Made by a program: the position numbers and the translations under genes. Shown in pieces: positions 27,683 to 38,322 of a DNA stretch of 64,000 nt. The stretch comes from Lysobacter capsici (GTDB taxonomy: Bacteria; Pseudomonadota; Gammaproteobacteria; Xanthomonadales; Xanthomonadaceae): positions 1,736,001-1,800,000 of the forward strand of contig NZ_CP094357.1 in assembly GCF_014779555.2 (NCBI RefSeq), written 5' to 3'. Position 1 is the stretch's first letter; the number at the start of each line of letters is the position of its first letter. Under the pieces are notes generated by a model. It made no database searches, was not told the origin of the DNA, and saw nothing but the letters and a program-made list of their open reading frames with translations.

Positions 27683-29065
27683 ATGACCGCACCTTCCATT
27701 CCGGCCGTCCTGCCGACGGTCAACGCCCGCATCTACCCAAAGGGCGGGCTCGACGTTCTGTCCCGCGACGAGGTCGCGCGCCTGCGCGACGCCTCCACCG
27801 GCATGCACGACCTGCTGCGTCGCTGCGCCCTGGCGGTGCTGACCAGCGGCAGCGCCTCCGACGACCCGCGCGCGGCGCGTGAGCTGTATCCCGATTTCGA
27901 TATCGAAGTGCATCAGCAAGACCGCGGCATGCGCATCGATCTGGTCAAGGCGCCGGCGATGGCCTTCGTCGACGGCGACATTATCCGCGGCGTCGCCGAG
28001 CTGCTGTTCGCCGTGGTCCGCGACCTGGCCTACACCGCGATCGAACTGGGCAAGGGCGGCGGCCGCGATCTCGACAGCAGCGACGGCCTGACCGACTCGG
28101 TGTTCGGACTGCTGCGCAACGCGCGCATCCTGCATCCGGCCGACCCGAACCTGGTGGTGTGCTGGGGCGGCCATTCGATCTCGCGCGACGAATACATCTA
28201 CACCAAGCAGGTCGGCTACGAGCTGGGCCTGCGCGGCCTGGACATCTGCACCGGCTGCGGTCCGGGCGCGATGAAGGGCCCGATGAAGGGCGCGACCATC
28301 GCCCACGCCAAGCAGCGCAAGCGCAACATGCGCTACATCGGCATCACCGAGCCGGGCATCATCGCCGCCGAATCGCCGAACCCGATCGTCAACCACCTGG
28401 TGATCATGCCGGACATCGAGAAGCGCCTGGAGGCCTTCGTCCGCATGGGCCACGGCATCATCGTGTTCCCGGGCGGCGTCGGCACCGCCGAGGAGATCCT
28501 GTATCTGCTCGGCATCCTGCTGCGCGAAGAGAACGCCGGCCTGCCGTTCCCGTTGATCCTGACCGGCCCGACCGCGTCGGCGCCGTATTTCGAGCAGATC
28601 GACAAATTCATCCGCCTGACCCTGGGCGACGCGGCGACCTCGCGCTACGAGATCATCGTCGGCGACCCCGAGCAGGTCGCCAAGCGCATGAGCCACGGCA
28701 TCCGCAAGGTCCGCGAATACCGCATCGAGCAGAAGGATTCGTTCTTCTTCAACTGGTCGATCGACATCCCGCTGACCTTCCAGCGCCCGTTCGTCCCGAC
28801 CCACGAGGCGATGGCCGCGCTGGACCTGCACCACGGCCGCAAGCCGCACGAACTGGCGGCGGATCTGCGTCGTGCGTTCTCGGGCATCGTCGCCGGCAAC
28901 GTCAAGGAGGACGGCATGCGCCGGATCGAGGAATTCGGCCCGTTCGAGATCCACGGCGACCCGGACATGATGCAGTCGCTGGACGAACTGCTGCGCGCCT
29001 TCGTCGAGCAGCGCCGGATGAAGATCGCCGGCGAATACCGCCCGTGCTACCGCGTGGTGACCTGA
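27683..29065 (+). CDS. ppnN: nucleotide 5'-monophosphate nucleosidase PpnN
   Basis: This YgdH/PpnN-type enzyme of 460 residues has the LOG-fold motif FPGGVGTAEEILYL in the C-terminal half. NLVVCWGGHSISRDEYIY and GCGPGAMKGPMKG precede it. The family hydrolyses nucleoside monophosphates to base plus ribose phosphate and is controlled by (p)ppGpp. ATG 27659 would add eight residues (MKKTEKNA); ATG 27683 is chosen as closer to the family start. Confidence 0.93.
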   Translation: MTAPSIPAVLPTVNARIYPKGGLDVLSRDEVARLRDASTGMHDLLRRCALAVLTSGSASDDPRAARELYPDFDIEVHQQDRGMRIDLVKAPAMAFVDGDIIRGVAELLFAVVRDLAYTAIELGKGGGRDLDSSDGLTDSVFGLLRNARILHPADPNLVVCWGGHSISRDEYIYTKQVGYELGLRGLDICTGCGPGAMKGPMKGATIAHAKQRKRNMRYIGITEPGIIAAESPNPIVNHLVIMPDIEKRLEAFVRMGHGIIVFPGGVGTAEEILYLLGILLREENAGLPFPLILTGPTASAPYFEQIDKFIRLTLGDAATSRYEIIVGDPEQVAKRMSHGIRKVREYRIEQKDSFFFNWSIDIPLTFQRPFVPTHEAMAALDLHHGRKPHELAADLRRAFSGIVAGNVKEDGMRRIEEFGPFEIHGDPDMMQSLDELLRAFVEQRRMKIAGEYRPCYRVVT

Positions 29066-29076
29066 GCGAAGGCCGC

Positions 29077-29103
29077 TGAAAAACCGGGGTTTTTCACTTT
29101 TTT
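29077..29103 (+). terminator. terminator after ppnN
   Basis: The stem TGAAAAAC / GTTTTTCA with loop CGGG is followed by a T-run at 29098-29103. Confidence 0.8.
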
Positions 29104-29114
29104 GCACAAGAGTG

Positions 29115-29143
29115 TTGACGCCGGTCGACTCAGTAAGCATCAT
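29115..29143 (+). promoter_or_regulatory. probable promoter of tRNA-Asn
   Basis: TTGACG at 29115-29120 and CATCAT at 29138-29143 are spaced by 17 bp and lie 10 bp before the mature tRNA 5' end. This fits a sigma-70 promoter. Confidence 0.55.
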
Positions 29144-29153
29144 ATGCAGCCCC

Positions 29154-29230
29154 GCCCGAATAGCTCAGCCGGTTAGAGCACTTGACTGTTAATCAGGGGG
29201 TCGTTGGTTCGAGTCCAACTTCGGGCGCCA
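29154..29230 (+). tRNA. tRNA-Asn (anticodon GTT)
   Basis: The 77-nt cloverleaf has acceptor stem GCCCGAA / TTCGGGC, D-arm TAGCTCAGCCGGTTAGAGCA, anticodon loop CTGTTAA, T-loop GGTTCGAGTCC and an encoded CCA. The prophage integrase gene begins immediately beyond, so the 3' half of this tRNA is the inferred attachment site (attL side). Confidence 0.97.
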
Positions 29231-29240
29231 GTATTACCAA

Positions 29241-29267
29241 GGGCTGCGAGCAATCGCAGCCCTTTTT
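29241..29267 (+). terminator. terminator after tRNA-Asn
   Basis: The 9-bp stem GGGCTGCGA / TCGCAGCCC with loop GCAA is followed by TTTTT. It lies just inside the prophage end, so the tRNA keeps a terminator after integration. Confidence 0.9.
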
Positions 29268-29298
29268 ATTTCGCCCAAATTCTGCTATTCCGCCCAAA

Positions 29299-30294
29299 TT
29301 ATCGGGCCGGCTGCGCCCGTTTCGGCTTCGCCCGGTAGTGCTTCCGGGTCACCTTGGAGTCCTTGTGCGCGAGCAGATCGGCGGCCTGTTCGTCGGTGTC
29401 CTTGTCGCTTCCGGCCTTGCGCCGGAGATCGTTCAGGCGGACGTCCTTGACCGACGTCTTGTCGCGCGCCACGCGCCATAGCGCACGCACGCCGCCGGGG
29501 GTATACGGCCCCGGCCCGCGCTTCGCGTGCTTCCCCCTCGGCGCACTCTCGAATAGGTATTCGCGCCCCTTCCGGGTCCATAGCTGGTTGGCCTGAGCCA
29601 CGCAGGCGCGCAGCTCGTCCGACCATTCGATCAATACCGGTGTGCTGGTCTTCTTCGTGACGGCGTAGATTCCTTCGTCGACGCTGATATCGCTCAATTT
29701 TACTTTCACGACGTCGCTTTGCCGCAGACCGGTGAGGTACGAAAAATTGAGCATGCACGACAGCTTCGGCGACGCCGCGTTAAGCAGAACAGCTAACTCG
29801 CCGTCATGGATATAACGCTGCCGTGGCTGCTCATCGTTACGGAACTGTAATTTCTTGGTCGGGTCTTCGCCTTTGAACGCGCCGACGCGCCGGGCGTGTG
29901 AAAACGCTGCGGACAATAGCGCGCGGTCGCGGTTCGCCTGCACGTCGCCGCGCTCGATCAAATACCGATAAATGTCGCTCGGCTCGACGTCGCTCAGATC
30001 AACATGCCCGAAGACCGGAACGAGATTACTCGTGCTGATTTGGTAGCCTTCGAGCGTCGATTTCGTGATCGGCTTTTTTCTCGTCGTCGCCCATTCGATG
30101 TAGTGCGCGATGGCCTGCTGCACGGTGCGCACTTCGGGTTTTTGGCCCACGATGGCGGCGTACTTAATCAGAGCTGGGCCGAATTCGCGGCCCAGCTTTA
30201 CCCACGGCGCGGAACCGCGCACATACCAATATGTTCCGCACCGCAGCCTGATTCCCAGCGGCAAATGCGTGTTCTTTTTGCGGCGCCTTCCCAT
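29299..30294 (-). CDS. int: prophage tyrosine recombinase (integrase)
   Basis: This 331-residue site-specific recombinase has an N-terminal SAM-like core-binding domain (about residues 55-150), then the catalytic domain. The first catalytic Arg is in YLTGLRQSD, the second Arg in LNDLRRKAG, the late His in LLAHKDSKVT and the nucleophile Tyr in TRKHYRA. The usual H-x-x-R box reads N-D-L-R, a common variant in this group. It lies 68 bp from the tRNA and reads toward it, as expected for integration at tRNA-Asn. Confidence 0.95.
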   Translation of the reverse strand: MGRRRKKNTHLPLGIRLRCGTYWYVRGSAPWVKLGREFGPALIKYAAIVGQKPEVRTVQQAIAHYIEWATTRKKPITKSTLEGYQISTSNLVPVFGHVDLSDVEPSDIYRYLIERGDVQANRDRALLSAAFSHARRVGAFKGEDPTKKLQFRNDEQPRQRYIHDGELAVLLNAASPKLSCMLNFSYLTGLRQSDVVKVKLSDISVDEGIYAVTKKTSTPVLIEWSDELRACVAQANQLWTRKGREYLFESAPRGKHAKRGPGPYTPGGVRALWRVARDKTSVKDVRLNDLRRKAGSDKDTDEQAADLLAHKDSKVTRKHYRAKPKRAQPAR

Positions 30295-34578: not shown

Positions 34579-34848
34579 TCAGTCGGTGACTAAGCCGCGG
34601 GTAGGGGGCGACGCAGGGCCGACGCGCTGCGCGTTATTGAGGGCGCCGTGGACGTCCTGCGCGATGTACTCGGCGACAGCGGCGATGCTGTCGTGCGACA
34701 CATCGACGAAGGACACGGCCTCCGACGAAAGAGCCGCGAGAAGCGCCGCAGCCAGTTGGGCGCGGCGCAGGCGGTTCATGTCGTCTTCGCTGAAGACGTA
34801 GTTGATGCCCTCGGGGAGCGTCGGGACAGCGGCTAGGCGCGCACTCAC
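34579..34848 (-). CDS. phage hypothetical protein
   Basis: This 89-residue helical protein contains GINYVFSEDDMNRLRRAQLAAALLAALS. The family is not recognised. It overlaps the 73-residue gene upstream by four bases (ATGA type). Confidence 0.55.
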   Translation of the reverse strand: MSARLAAVPTLPEGINYVFSEDDMNRLRRAQLAAALLAALSSEAVSFVDVSHDSIAAVAEYIAQDVHGALNNAQRVGPASPPTRGLVTD

Positions 34849-35066
34849 GATTGCACCTCATCGCCGAGCAGGTCGTGGACCTGATTGATGGCGGTGACCA
34901 CTTCGGCGAGCGTCAGATCGGTGACCACCTCGCGCGCGTTTTCCAGCTTGACCATCAAGGCCAGCCACGCGTGGTGGTTCCAGTCGAGGGTGTTGGCGAT
35001 TTCGCCGAAGGCAGCGGCGATCTCGCGGCGCGGGTTGCCAGGCGCAACAGGGGTGTCGTGCGACAT
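34845..35066 (-). CDS. small phage protein downstream of C4-like RNA
   Basis: This 73-residue acidic helical protein contains IAAAFGEIANTLDWNHHAWLALMVKLENAREV. The family is not recognised. Its GGAG ribosome-binding site (35073-35076, minus strand) is paired in a short hairpin with CTCCA (35085-35089). A few bases further upstream lies a segment complementary to the C4-like RNA core, so translation is probably controlled. Confidence 0.6.
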   Translation of the reverse strand: MSHDTPVAPGNPRREIAAAFGEIANTLDWNHHAWLALMVKLENAREVVTDLTLAEVVTAINQVHDLLGDEVQS

Positions 35067-35377
35067 GCGGGGCTCCAGGTAGGTTGGAGTCCGGCATCCC
35101 GACGCCAATCGGGGTGACGGACGGTGCGCGGTTGGCGTACCGGACCTGGGGCCGGCAGACCTTGCGGTCTCCGCGCACCGCCCGCCGTAGAAACGGCTGG
35201 CATTTGCCCACGACGACACAGCGGGCAATAAAAAAGCGCCGTGCATCGATCGATGGGCGCTGGTGCGCCAGGAATACGGGACGCCAATCCCGGTCGCCGA
35301 TTGTGCGGCGACGGCACATAGGCTGCGCCGAAGCTGCGCGCCAGTCAAGTCCGTTCGGCGAGGCGCGACCGCGGCGC
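35067..35377 (-). ncRNA. C4-type antisense RNA region (candidate)
   Basis: Read on the minus strand, this gene-free stretch is rich in structure. A 10-bp stem joins CGGTGCGCGG (35180-35171) to CCGCGCACCG (35131-35122). Inside it is a hairpin AGACC-GCAA-GGTCT (35170-35157) and, before it, hairpin CCGT-TTCT-ACGG (35196-35185). The loop segment CCAGGTCCGGTACGCCAA (35149-35132) can pair with two flanking copies containing TTGGCGT (35287-35281 and 35108-35102). This resembles the phage P1/P7 C4 RNA plan. The identification is from memory and geometry, not a search. Confidence 0.5.
35230..35260 (-). terminator. hairpin with T-run downstream of primase gene
   Basis: On the minus strand GCGCC...GGCGC, with an inner CATCGATCGATG palindrome, is followed by TTTTTT (35235-35230). 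It could terminate primase transcription or end a short leader before the C4-like core. Confidence 0.6.
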
Positions 35378-38098
35378 TCATTTCCGGAACGTCCAGCATT
35401 TGATGACGGGAGACGCGCCCTGGTTTCCGGCGCGAATCTTGCTGTTCACCGCTACGTTGGCGTCGATGCACTTGTGGCGGCGTGAGTCGCGCAGCAGGGT
35501 GCGCAAAACTTTCAGATCGGCCAACTGCTGCGAGTGGTAGGCGGCCTTCGCTGCGAACTCGTTGAGGTTGATCGCGATCGTGTTCTCGTCGCGCGAGTGG
35601 TTCACGGTCGGCTTTTCGTGGTTGAGGCCTTCCAGGAACTCGTAGACCTCCCAGAACTCTGCGACCAGGGGATGGTCCGCGCTGATGGCGCGCTGGCGAT
35701 CCAGGGCCATTTCGACGATCGCCTGCGCGGTGCCTTCGACCATTTCGGTGGTCAGCGGCACCACTAGGCGCAGGCAGTCCAGCAACGCCAGCATCTGCGC
35801 GTGGTTCTTGATCACGCGCTCAATTCGAATGTCCTTTTTCTCGCGTAGGCGCGCTTCGTACACGCGCACGCGCTCGTTGAACTTGGCGAGGATCTGGCCT
35901 TCGGCGCGGACGGCTTTGAGCAGGAAGTACGCGAGCGCGTCCACCGGCAGCGAGTTGAGGTTGTCGGCCGCTTCGCGGCTCTCCGTCGTTACCGTGGGCC
36001 GCTTGAAGTGCAGCTTGACGATGCGGGTCAGGATCGCTTCGGAAGCATCGACCGGCGCGTTTTGACTGATGACGATGGTGCCGCGGAACGGCGGCTCGTA
36101 GGTTTCATTGCCGCCGTTTCGAACGCCGCGCGTGCGCAGCGTGCCGCCGCCGAAGAAGTCCTTCAGCTCGTCCCAATCGAAGCTCCTGGCGTGCGCTTTG
36201 TCGGGCTGGCTGCGGTCTGCCTCCAGCAGCACGACGGGCATGTTCGCGATCTGGCCCATCGCGCGGGACCGGCCGGCCACGGACGACTTGGCGGGATCAA
36301 AGCCCTCGTAGTCTTGGCGGCCCAGCAGCTTCCACAGGAACGTCAGCAGCGTAGTCTTGCCGGCGCCTGCCTCGCCGGTTGCCTCCAGGAAAGGGAACGA
36401 TTCGTGGGCATCGCGGATCTGTTCGGCGAACAGCGAACCGAACCAGAAGGCCAGGGCGACGATGCCGTGCGTTCCGAAGCACAACCACAGCCACGGCAGC
36501 CAGTCCTCGCGGTAGGCCTCGGCGTCGCGCTGCAGACGCAGCCGGATCGACTTCTGGGTGCTCTTCAGGCGCAGCTTGTCGAAGTCGAAGTAGTCCTCGG
36601 CATTGACCTGCACCAGTTCGCCCTCGCGGACGGCCAGTTCGCCCAGAAGATAGGCGCGGTGTTCCTTGCTGTAGCCGATGAAGTCGATTGCATCGACCGT
36701 TTTGATATTGAAGAGCTGGTCCTTCATGACGTGGATCAGCTGCGCCGCGGTGCCGTCGAACACCGCGCCCGGCGCGAAGCTCGCGAGCCGATCGCGGAAC
36801 GTGGGGGCGTTGAGCGTCTGGGACGAGGTAAAGGTGCCTTTTACACTCGGTGCGTCATGCGGGAAATCGACGCGGAAAAAATACCAGGACTCGTCGGTCA
36901 CTTCGTTGCGCTGGAAATAGAGCGCTTCCGGATAGCAGTTGGCGATTTCGTGAACATCAGCCGCAGCGCGGCGCAAGCGATCCTCCGCGACCTCGTCCAG
37001 CTCGTCCTCGTCCAGGCCTTTCTCGGCGGTGTACTGGCTGCGCGCCTTCTCGTAGCGCAGCTTGTCAAATTCGAACCAGTACAACCGCGAGCGATGCCCC
37101 AGATGAAAACCGGAGCGTTTGTCGTGGTCGTACATCAACAATCCCTTCTCCATCGCGCTCTTGGCCAGGAACAGCGCGCCTTGATACCGAGCTTCCGCGA
37201 TGTCATCTGCCCATTGCTTCGCCGCGGTGTCGGCTTCGGCGTATGCGTGCGCGCGCAGGTGAAGATCGTTCCAGTCGGTCTTCTTCCCGTCGCGCTGAGG
37301 GATTAGCGCAGCGCGGCAGCGGAAGCCCAAGGCTTCGGCGCGGCGGACGTGCTTGCGGATGTAGTCGTGGGTGCCCGGGCGATCGCCAACAGCCGGTTCG
37401 TTGTCGAGAGCCCATATCAAAGTTGGCAGATTGCCCGAGCGCCGCTTAGCGAGAGCGCGGAGCGATTCCTCCGGGAATGCGTTGCTGCTCATCGCCGACA
37501 CGGCCGCGTGGCCGTGCTGGACGTGGGCGATAGCATCGAAGATGCCCTCGGTCACCCAAACCTCGCTCGCGGTGTCGAGCATGGTGTCCACCGCAGGCAT
37601 ACACCACCACACCCCGGCGTAGCTCGCGCCCGGCTTGAAGCGCGCCTTTTGCTTTCCAAACCGGTGCGGTCGATCGATCAGGCGTTCCCAATACCCGCCC
37701 TTGTCGAGTGCGAAGCGCACCGTCGCGGTGCCGGCTTCGATCTTGCGGTCGTAATAGGTCTCTTGCGTGTAGAGCCCACGCAGGTCTTTGAGCGCGAAGC
37801 CGCGGTTGAACTCCAGGTACGCATCCGCTGCGGCGGTCGGATTGGCCGGTGTTGCCGTATAGCGTTTGGACCAGTCGTCGAACAGATCGTCGTACAGGTC
37901 TTTGACGTGCAATTCGCGGCCGCACTTGGACTGCCGGCCGCAGCGCAACACCCACGGTTTCAGGTGGCTGGTGTAAAGCTCTTTTTTTCCGCACGCCGGG
38001 CACTTGCCGCCGCGCATGTAGTCGGTGCCCGGGCGATGCTTGAGCCCGTAGTCGCGCTGAAGGCGGTCGATGACCTGGTGGCGGATGCTGTCCTGCAT
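35378..38098 (-). CDS. P4-alpha-like primase/helicase
   Basis: This 906-residue phage replication protein has an N-terminal zinc finger (CPACGKKELYTSH...CGRQSKCGRELH), a Toprim-like primase part (EVWVTEGIFDAIA, LIWALDNE), and a C-terminal AAA/SF3-like ATPase with Walker A ATGEAGAGKTTLL and Walker B-like MPVVLLEADR. It probably primes and unwinds DNA at the prophage origin. ATG 38098 is used because a GAGG lies upstream and the longer frame would overlap the next gene. It replaces the P2 A-type rolling-circle initiator, which I do not see. Confidence 0.88.
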   Translation of the reverse strand: MQDSIRHQVIDRLQRDYGLKHRPGTDYMRGGKCPACGKKELYTSHLKPWVLRCGRQSKCGRELHVKDLYDDLFDDWSKRYTATPANPTAAADAYLEFNRGFALKDLRGLYTQETYYDRKIEAGTATVRFALDKGGYWERLIDRPHRFGKQKARFKPGASYAGVWWCMPAVDTMLDTASEVWVTEGIFDAIAHVQHGHAAVSAMSSNAFPEESLRALAKRRSGNLPTLIWALDNEPAVGDRPGTHDYIRKHVRRAEALGFRCRAALIPQRDGKKTDWNDLHLRAHAYAEADTAAKQWADDIAEARYQGALFLAKSAMEKGLLMYDHDKRSGFHLGHRSRLYWFEFDKLRYEKARSQYTAEKGLDEDELDEVAEDRLRRAAADVHEIANCYPEALYFQRNEVTDESWYFFRVDFPHDAPSVKGTFTSSQTLNAPTFRDRLASFAPGAVFDGTAAQLIHVMKDQLFNIKTVDAIDFIGYSKEHRAYLLGELAVREGELVQVNAEDYFDFDKLRLKSTQKSIRLRLQRDAEAYREDWLPWLWLCFGTHGIVALAFWFGSLFAEQIRDAHESFPFLEATGEAGAGKTTLLTFLWKLLGRQDYEGFDPAKSSVAGRSRAMGQIANMPVVLLEADRSQPDKAHARSFDWDELKDFFGGGTLRTRGVRNGGNETYEPPFRGTIVISQNAPVDASEAILTRIVKLHFKRPTVTTESREAADNLNSLPVDALAYFLLKAVRAEGQILAKFNERVRVYEARLREKKDIRIERVIKNHAQMLALLDCLRLVVPLTTEMVEGTAQAIVEMALDRQRAISADHPLVAEFWEVYEFLEGLNHEKPTVNHSRDENTIAINLNEFAAKAAYHSQQLADLKVLRTLLRDSRRHKCIDANVAVNSKIRAGNQGASPVIKCWTFRK

Positions 38099-38103
38099 TG
38101 CGA

Positions 38104-38322
38104 TCAGGCCTCGCGATCCCTGCACAGATAATTCCGTGCCCACGCTTCAGGGGACGGGATACGTTCGAAGTCGCCGCCGGCGGCGATGAACGCTTCGACC
38201 TCCGCGCGCAGTTCGTCGGCCTTGCGCGCCTTGATCGTCGGTTCGACGATCTCCGACTGCACCGGGAGCGGCGCTTTGCTGAAGTTCGGGATCTGTGCCG
38301 AGTACCACCCGTAGTCCTTCAT
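38104..38322 (-). CDS. phage hypothetical protein
   Basis: This 72-residue protein starts MKDYGWYSAQIPNFSKAPL and contains ADELRAEVEAFIAAGGDFERIP. The family is not recognised. It overlaps its upstream neighbour by four bases and ends five bases before the primase start. Confidence 0.55.
   Translation of the reverse strand: MKDYGWYSAQIPNFSKAPLPVQSEIVEPTIKARKADELRAEVEAFIAAGGDFERIPSPEAWARNYLCRDREA

Follow-up and report, generated by a model that had tools for sequence, protein, structure and literature searches.

The minus strand of the window, by which we mean the whole 64,000-nucleotide stretch of DNA analysed here, very probably carries a C4-type immunity switch that acts on a 73-codon gene, orf73. 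The element is a fresh member of a known family. A C4-like antisense RNA had been proposed at this site from the sequence alone, and the Rfam C4 model (RF01695) matches positions 35192–35110 with 66.3 bits against a curated cut-off of 45 (E 1.2e-10 over the 64-kb window). In relatives, the antisense segments of C4 change together with both of their targets, and the linkage of C4 to orf73 is conserved.

Layout of the locus and fold of the C4 core

The C4 locus is placed between a phage primase gene and a series of small early genes on the minus strand. Its features are listed below in the direction of transcription.

35378–38143, minus: phage DNA primase gene (phrog_1139), ending about 30 nt ahead of the −35 box
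35343–35348, minus: putative −35 box TTGACT of the C4 promoter; its spacing to a1 is shared with relatives and P1
35325–35320, minus: weak −10 candidate CAGCCT, the best found here, matching 2 of 6 bases
35281–35287, minus: a1 target TTGGCGT, in the loop of the hairpin CGGGA-TTGGCG-TCCCG (sequence, coevolution)
35268–35272, minus: b1 target CCTGG; the antiterminator 5' arm begins with its GG (sequence, coevolution)
35256–35269, minus: proposed antiterminator hairpin GGCGC-ACCA-GCGCC (sequence, folding, arm-swap test)
35230–35260, minus: intrinsic terminator, GCGCC (35260–35256) with GGCGC (35240–35236), followed by TTTTTT (35235–35230)
35110–35192, minus: C4 antisense RNA, RF01695 (covariance match of 66.3 bits, fold)
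35144–35149, minus: b' antisense segment CCAGGT, in the third stem-loop
35132–35138, minus: a' antisense segment ACGCCAA
35102–35108, minus: a2 target TTGGCGT (sequence, coevolution)
35073–35092, minus: hairpin GGACTCC...GGAG, which hides the Shine-Dalgarno site and carries b2 (arms covary in relatives)
35075–35080, minus: b2 target ACCTGG, overlapping the Shine-Dalgarno GGAG at 35076–35073 (coevolution)
34845–35066, minus: orf73, 73 codons with ATG at 35066, proposed direct target gene
34579–34848, minus: orf89, the gene after orf73, overlapping it by 4 nt

The short sequences on which the original prediction was built are all present on the minus strand where it had placed them: CCAGGT...ACGCCAA at 35149–35132, the upstream TTGGCGT (35287–35281) and CCTGG (35272–35268), the downstream TTGGCGT (35108–35102) and CCGGAC (35094–35089), and the GGAG at 35076–35073 before the ATG at 35066. 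The predicted 10-bp perfect stem corresponds to ten adjacent pairs inside a 16-pair outer stem. The core folds with −51.3 kcal/mol and a z score of −4.7, and none of 200 shuffled sequences folded equally well. The outer stem encloses two hairpins and the unpaired a' segment, a' and b' are complementary to a1b1 upstream and to a2b2 downstream on the same strand, and b2 shares bases with the ribosome-binding site of the first gene, which are the marks of C4 membership. GGC occurs at 35186–35184, the place equivalent to the start of the C4 RNA of phage P1, and, by analogy, a mature RNA starting with this GGC would span approximately 35186–35113. The upstream partner scored under the cut-off with the c4-a1b1 model (RF03163; 43.1 bits, cut-off 46.7), as did the a1b1-terminator segment with the isrK model (RF01394; 45.5 bits, cut-off 50). 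The upstream segment of L002, the closest relative found, passes for c4-a1b1 with 50.5 bits and lies below the isrK cut-off with 49 bits. A search of the whole host genome returned one C4 match, the window locus. C4 was absent from the other 19 genomes searched in the genus of the host and present in 93 of the 395 genomes searched in the family.

A strict sigma-70 scan of the window found no promoter at the C4 locus. Comparison of different a/b codes (see below) locates a TTGAC 60–61 nt 5' of a1 in 37 of 49 codes, four of the 49 being one-sided, against a mean of 0.22 and a maximum of 2 in 500 shuffling runs. Some of the spacers between the −35 and −10 boxes contain inverted repeats of varying sequence, which are perhaps repressor operators; arms of at least 5 occur in 9 of 37 spacers versus 9.2% of shuffles, and the mean arm length is 3.57 versus 3.39 in shuffles. 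A simple terminator scan returned none at the C4 leader, probably because the scan allows only loops of 3–8. With its 4-nt overlap, orf89 is probably translationally coupled to orf73.

Coevolution of the C4 code and its targets

The a' and b' segments were extracted by script from 112 C4 loci, comprising the window, L002 and 110 loci from the family, and represent 58 different codes. The 110 family loci consist of the 30 best returned and 80 that were hand-picked among the matches listed, mostly better-scoring ones, passing over some places such as contig ends and neighbours of loci already included; good C4 copies are thus favoured in the sample. Codes were divided into two-sided (47) and one-sided (11) once it was apparent which of them lacked a2. 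Among the two-sided codes, a1 is an exact 7/7 complement in 44 of 47 versus 14 of 1824 code swaps, and a2 is exact in 45 of 47 versus none of 1824 swaps; L057 is counted within the 47 though its a2 has been lost. When all 58 codes are included, 45 have an intact a2 (0 of 2934 swaps) and 51 an intact a1 (65 of 2934). The second half of the code behaves likewise: complements of at least 6 nt are present at b1 in 42 of the 47 codes (11.7% of swaps) and at b2 in 45 (14.2% of swaps), and b2 overlaps a Shine-Dalgarno-like site in 43 of the 47.

The window and L002 provide a direct example. Their scaffolds share 56 of 58 bases (five end bases on each side excluded), whereas a' changes from ACGCCAA to CTGCCAA and both a1 and a2 change from TTGGCGT to TTGGCAG; b', b1 and b2 are altered in step as well. 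Together with the a2 counts against swaps, these differences provide strong compensatory changes for the pairing that had been predicted. L044 and L145, two near-identical C4 loci of one genome, exhibit a concerted a'/a1/a2 difference that is confined to the a half. Codes diverge more quickly than the scaffold: of 74 pairs of loci with at least 97% identical scaffolds, which are not independent of one another, 16% differ in a' and 50% in b'.

A further 25 C4 loci completed the listed over-cut-off matches of 39 genomes, omitting two below the cut-off. Avoidance of identical codes within one genome did not reach significance, with 1 pair observed against 3.34 expected (P 0.14) and, in a second genus, 0 against 1.34 (P 0.20), and code exclusion within genomes was accordingly rejected as evidence of immunity. 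Tandem C4 copies, each no more than about 1 kb from its neighbour, occur in three contigs (G244:C58 near 87636 and 88000; G151:C72 near 24289 and 25164; G654:C9 1700–3092). One C4 group has a1b1 upstream and no a2b2 downstream (L023, L048, L049, L051, L063, L068, L089, L091, L092, L109 and L111), so its function must differ. All its members belong to one genus (g29), with up to 10 copies per genome among the 10 candidates scored per genome.

The downstream target and the hidden Shine-Dalgarno site

The original prediction had composed the downstream copy of TTGGCGT and CCGGAC. Coevolution bears out the former as a2, and the latter was rejected as b2. A full 6-nt complement of the CCGGAC kind (35094–35089 in the window) is found in 1 of 56 codes, that of the window only, and one of at least 5 nt in 7 of 56; complements of this kind score as swapped pairs do (3.45 versus 3.39). 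In 54 of 56 codes the best match to b' on the downstream side is at least 6 nt long. This test is asymmetric to the former in that it takes the best match of the whole b' loop rather than one 6-mer, and its fair control is the swap test with its 14.2% of swaps at 6 nt or more. Downstream, b' coevolves with ACCTGG at 35080–35075, positioned on the Shine-Dalgarno site, and not with CCGGAC. In terms of duplex energy the CCGGAC pairing (−14.2 kcal/mol) is stronger than the ACCTGG pairing (−10.4 kcal/mol) yet it does not coevolve, hence energy alone is misleading here.

CCGGAC is part of the 5' arm of the hairpin in which the Shine-Dalgarno site is hidden. This hairpin had also been predicted, and its arms covary in relatives (GGAYTCC with GGARTCC; 5.09 for own arms versus 3.51 for swapped ones). 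Folding of the isolated leader yields an unpaired probability of 0.00 for the Shine-Dalgarno site. A single RNA with two targets fits the data as well as the two competing partners of the prediction.

The upstream target as a possible attenuator

The upstream target a1b1 is labelled 'putative' in the P1 record, and comparison of relatives suggests for it a concrete, testable role as an attenuator. The b1 sequence runs into a GGCGC that is able to pair with a nearby GCGCC across the loop ACCA. The same GCGCC (35260–35256, minus strand) can pair instead with a later GGCGC that precedes six T, so that within 35269–35230 the antiterminator and terminator hairpins are mutually exclusive. As b1 overlaps the antiterminator arm, C4 might trigger the terminator in its own leader.

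This arrangement was modelled by folding leaders with b1 masked. In 59 codes (14 others having been skipped for want of an exact a1 or a T run), the mean terminator pairing rises from 0.58 to 0.91, compared with 0.61 for a control mask, and the rise exceeds 0.2 in 34 codes versus 11 with the control. A second set of 30 loci, 26 of them from a class-wide search and 2 of 32 loci having given no T run, yields 0.54 to 0.85 with a control of 0.66, and a rise in 14 loci versus 7; in this set b1 was misplaced for L170, L171 and L191, and was reset by hand for the arm-swap test only. The window, L002, P1 and P4 belong to both sets. Masking has no effect in P4 (1.00 before and after), and no rise, or a fall, is seen for L085, L087 and L104 in the larger set and for L171 and L198 in the smaller. 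In the window the terminator pairing is 0.79 free and 0.98 with b1 masked at equilibrium. The terminator is thus already favoured there, and attenuation would matter in the window only if cotranscriptional folding favours the antiterminator.

In the arm-swap test the antiterminator arm scores 5.07 with its own leader versus 4.51 with swapped leaders, and 0 of 5000 shuffles are as good, while the 5 pairs reached by 26 of 30 loci are also reached by 51% of swaps. For the 17 loci whose arm is not GGCGC, the arm scores 5.06 with its own leader, 4.57 with swapped ones and 3.89 with shuffled ones (0 of 5000 permutations). On these folding results we lean, by a small margin, towards an attenuation step in which C4 bound to b1 would free the terminator, the gain being modest. 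The authors of the IsrK study proposed a termination role for the C4-like STnc1160, and reported that its co-expression deepened rather than relieved the growth arrest caused by IsrK (PMC4825925, available text). A description of the b1/antiterminator arrangement was not found in the portions available of the literature on C4 RNA with terminators or on c4-a1b1, although an earlier one may exist.

Comparison with known systems

The predicted agreement with the plan of phage P1 holds element by element, through promoter, a1b1, C4, a2b2 and a 73-codon gene. P1 C4 RNA belongs to the same Rfam family and scores 68.8 bits in the same search. The P1 record marks a1, b1, C4, a2, b2, icd and ant1, and the spacing in the window agrees with it within a few bases: the −35 box of P1c4 lies 60 nt upstream of a1, the end of b2 lies 10 nt ahead of the start codon, and the first gene of 73 codons overlaps the next by 4 nt. 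Unlike P1, the window has a different code and its locus sits behind a primase gene. No similarity was detected between orf73 and P1 Icd, and orf73 was rejected as an Icd homologue. It is the RNA logic, not the protein, that is kept between P1 and the window.

The CI RNA of satellite phage P4 (seqA/seqB/seqC) is also of this family, with 74.9 bits and a and b targets on both sides. A P4-alpha-like primase had been predicted next to the C4 element. The primase is indeed adjacent; its order is opposite, as alpha lies downstream of C4 in P4 and the primase lies upstream of C4 here, so that direct action of C4 on the primase gene by a/b pairing is excluded. The Gifsy-1 region IsrK-orf45-anrP with STnc1160 is described as having an upstream IsrK with a terminator, a small ORF, an antirepressor-like gene and pairing between these parts, and IsrK is reported to be an activator in trans (PMC4825925, available text); the isrK match of the window lies below the cut-off. 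Group 1 C4-like sRNAs of Acinetobacter baumannii contain the C4 motif, appear to be cut from longer transcripts and occur in many copies, and are proposed to act on incoming phages or bacterial mRNAs; adjacent targets are not discussed in the part of that report available (PMC5320573).

Linkage to orf73 and prophage context

Homologues of orf73 follow C4 in 36 of the 138 other C4 sequences searched. In 35 of the 36 the alignment begins at residue 1, 43–51 nt past the end of C4; in L040 it begins at residue 10, in register with this spacing. Homologues of orf89 were found downstream of C4 in 16 of the 138 sequences, many of whose flanks end too early. The orf73 protein matches the profile phrog_26166 (E 2.3e-17) and, weakly, phrog_17048 'anti-repressor' (E 0.0018). 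It also resembles the end of Smp131 gp37, which is named 'anti-repressor' in the RefSeq record and hypothetical in the GenBank record. The orf73 operon is probably antirepressor-like, a label that derives from a weak match and a database annotation. No ANT domain was matched in orf73 or the two following genes.

A blastn search of region 34845–35400 against a phage collection gave no match at E 1e-5, and a search of the viral collection found a single relative of orf73, L002. Judged by the primase, the closest phage records are those of Smp131 and Dobby, which are listed under Peduoviridae; neither yielded a C4 match. Of 24 primase relatives from named genomes, 14 have a C4 match at the Rfam cut-off downstream of the primase, 3 have one upstream and 7 have none within the DNA examined. 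The C4 matches of L122, L136 and L138 lie upstream of a related primase, in the P4-like order. In L121, orf137 lies approximately 150 nt behind the primase, and C4, orf73 and orf89 gave no match; C4-orf73-orf89 therefore looks like a module, of which L121 is a possible natural empty site.

Genes for a tail protein and a tape measure protein in the window indicate a tailed-phage prophage. A tRNA gene (29154–29227) adjoins a phage integrase gene (29299–30294) and marks a likely attachment site. No 16-mer of 29051–29400 recurs elsewhere in the window.

Proposed mechanism and alternative explanations

In the prophage state, the promoter at the end of the primase gene would produce a leader RNA from which C4 would be cut, presumably by RNase P. 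C4 would then pair through a' and b' with a2b2 just downstream and, as b2 overlaps the ribosome-binding site of orf73, translation of orf73 would be blocked, and that of orf89 too by coupling. Pairing of C4 with a1b1 would cover the first bases of the antiterminator arm at b1, the shared GCGCC would be freed, the terminator would form and transcription would stop before C4. As an RNA repressor that limits its own synthesis, C4 would hold the orf73 operon off and make the lysogen immune to phages of the same a/b code.

The role of the upstream partner can be read differently. In the scheme known from IsrK, a short terminated a1b1 RNA would activate in trans by diverting C4, or the stretch of the long mRNA that contains it, from the ribosome-binding site, and would be an antagonist of C4 instead of its second target. 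The isrK model does match the a1b1-terminator segment of the window with 45.5 bits, short of the cut-off of 50, and passes its cut-off in 8 of 13 primase relatives; IsrK itself is reported to activate orf45-anrP in trans (PMC4825925, available text). That b1 lies on the antiterminator arm speaks for C4 acting directly on termination, within the limits of the folding results. Because both schemes use the same pairings, coevolution cannot separate them, and we consider the trans-activating antagonist possible but the less probable reading. It is unlikely that C4 functions chiefly as in P4, ending transcription of the operon early through lost translation and Rho and having little effect on orf73 translation. 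P4 C4 is of the same family, with 74.9 bits, and precedes the primase operon, and P4 CI RNA is described as a termination factor by the IsrK authors (PMC4825925, available text), whereas b2 lies on a Shine-Dalgarno-like site in 43 of 47 codes, which points to translation, and the primase is upstream of C4 here.

The C4 module could be a remnant that was kept by chance in a defective prophage and has no current function; the 16-mers of 29051–29400 revealed no second copy of the attachment-side sequence in the window, so that the prophage may be incomplete. Complementarity at the a and b sites is nevertheless exact despite divergence from relatives, and the primase, orf73 and orf89 frames are open, which renders decay very improbable. 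A long frame, 34845–35471, is open through C4 into orf73 in the window, and that of L002 ends at the same stop. When the window is aligned with L002, three single-base gaps fall in the stretch from a1 to the start of orf73. The codons read across C4 therefore differ between the two frames, whereas the RNA pairs are preserved. Coding through C4 was rejected on these gaps, and we assign it almost no weight.

Relation to sRNA-Xcc1

L120, a Vulcaniibacterium locus with an 84% identical primase, carries a match to Rfam sRNA-Xcc1 (RF02221; L120:7058–7145, 75.3 bits) in the place of C4 before the orf73 homologue. Its a' TTATGAG is complementary to a CTCATAA on both sides and its b' ACTTGTGC to a GCACAAG, likewise on both sides; the downstream GCACAAG extends into the Shine-Dalgarno site. 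A terminator-like stretch is situated between the upstream and downstream targets.

The pattern extends to other copies. The set of 53 sRNA-Xcc1 loci (L120:7058–7145, L199–L246 and L255–L258) comprises the best 30 of one search, 22 of 30 from a second, and L120; in the second the 8 lowest-scoring were omitted and 6 of the 22 kept are below the Rfam cut-off. After one locus with a short flank was excluded, the set comprised 37 distinct codes. Upstream complements of at least 6 nt are present for a in 26 and for b in 27 of the 37 codes, versus 5.9% and 4.8% of swaps; downstream, the counts are 14 and 15 versus 4.1% and 4.4%. None of 5000 permutations matched these values in any of the tests. If 5 nt are required at each of the four sites, 13 codes are two-sided, 15 upstream only and 9 other, so the downstream target is missing in many. 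The Rfam model of sRNA-Xcc1 has an outer stem and two inner hairpins; its sequence differs from that of C4, and it forms a separate Rfam family, listed without a clan. Two copies folded singly are only slightly better than shuffles (z −1.4 and −1.7). These comparisons suggest that sRNA-Xcc1 is built on the same plan as C4.

sRNA-Xcc1 was found in 149 of the 395 family genomes searched (E ≤ 0.001), in 147 of them over the cut-off. Six of 10 translated next-gene proteins were tested against Pfam, and 4 of the 6 are SymE-like. The host chromosome carries a copy outside the window (L229, G000:C1:1582301–1582383), which has an upstream a1b1 and no clear downstream a2b2, and precedes a small gene without a Pfam match. 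In the available text of three papers sRNA-Xcc1 is described as virulence-linked or as trans-acting with predicted targets elsewhere (PMC2996969, PMC12444791, PMC12189769); one of them notes symE beside sRNA-Xcc1 and suggests a divergent regulatory mechanism. One paper that names both sRNA-Xcc1 and C4 antisense RNA gives them in a table, and no link between them was found drawn in the portions available.

The relatives of the window show a specificity code in the course of change: C4 and both of its targets move jointly and the scaffold stays. For specialists the point of interest is the extended reading, with attenuation and sRNA-Xcc1 included, towards which the balance tips only slightly. 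C4, the IsrK-like upstream partner and sRNA-Xcc1 would then form one class of code-swapping RNA switches, in which an antisense RNA is cut from the leader that it controls and a two-part code is read at two sites, the leader terminator as negative feedback and the ribosome-binding site of the next gene; phages would use it for immunity, and other loci, in its sRNA-Xcc1 form, for silencing SymE-like toxins. Membership in such a class predicts the target of sRNA-Xcc1, namely the gene directly behind it. If this is true, sRNA-Xcc1 would be a repressor of its own locus rather than mainly a trans-acting virulence sRNA.
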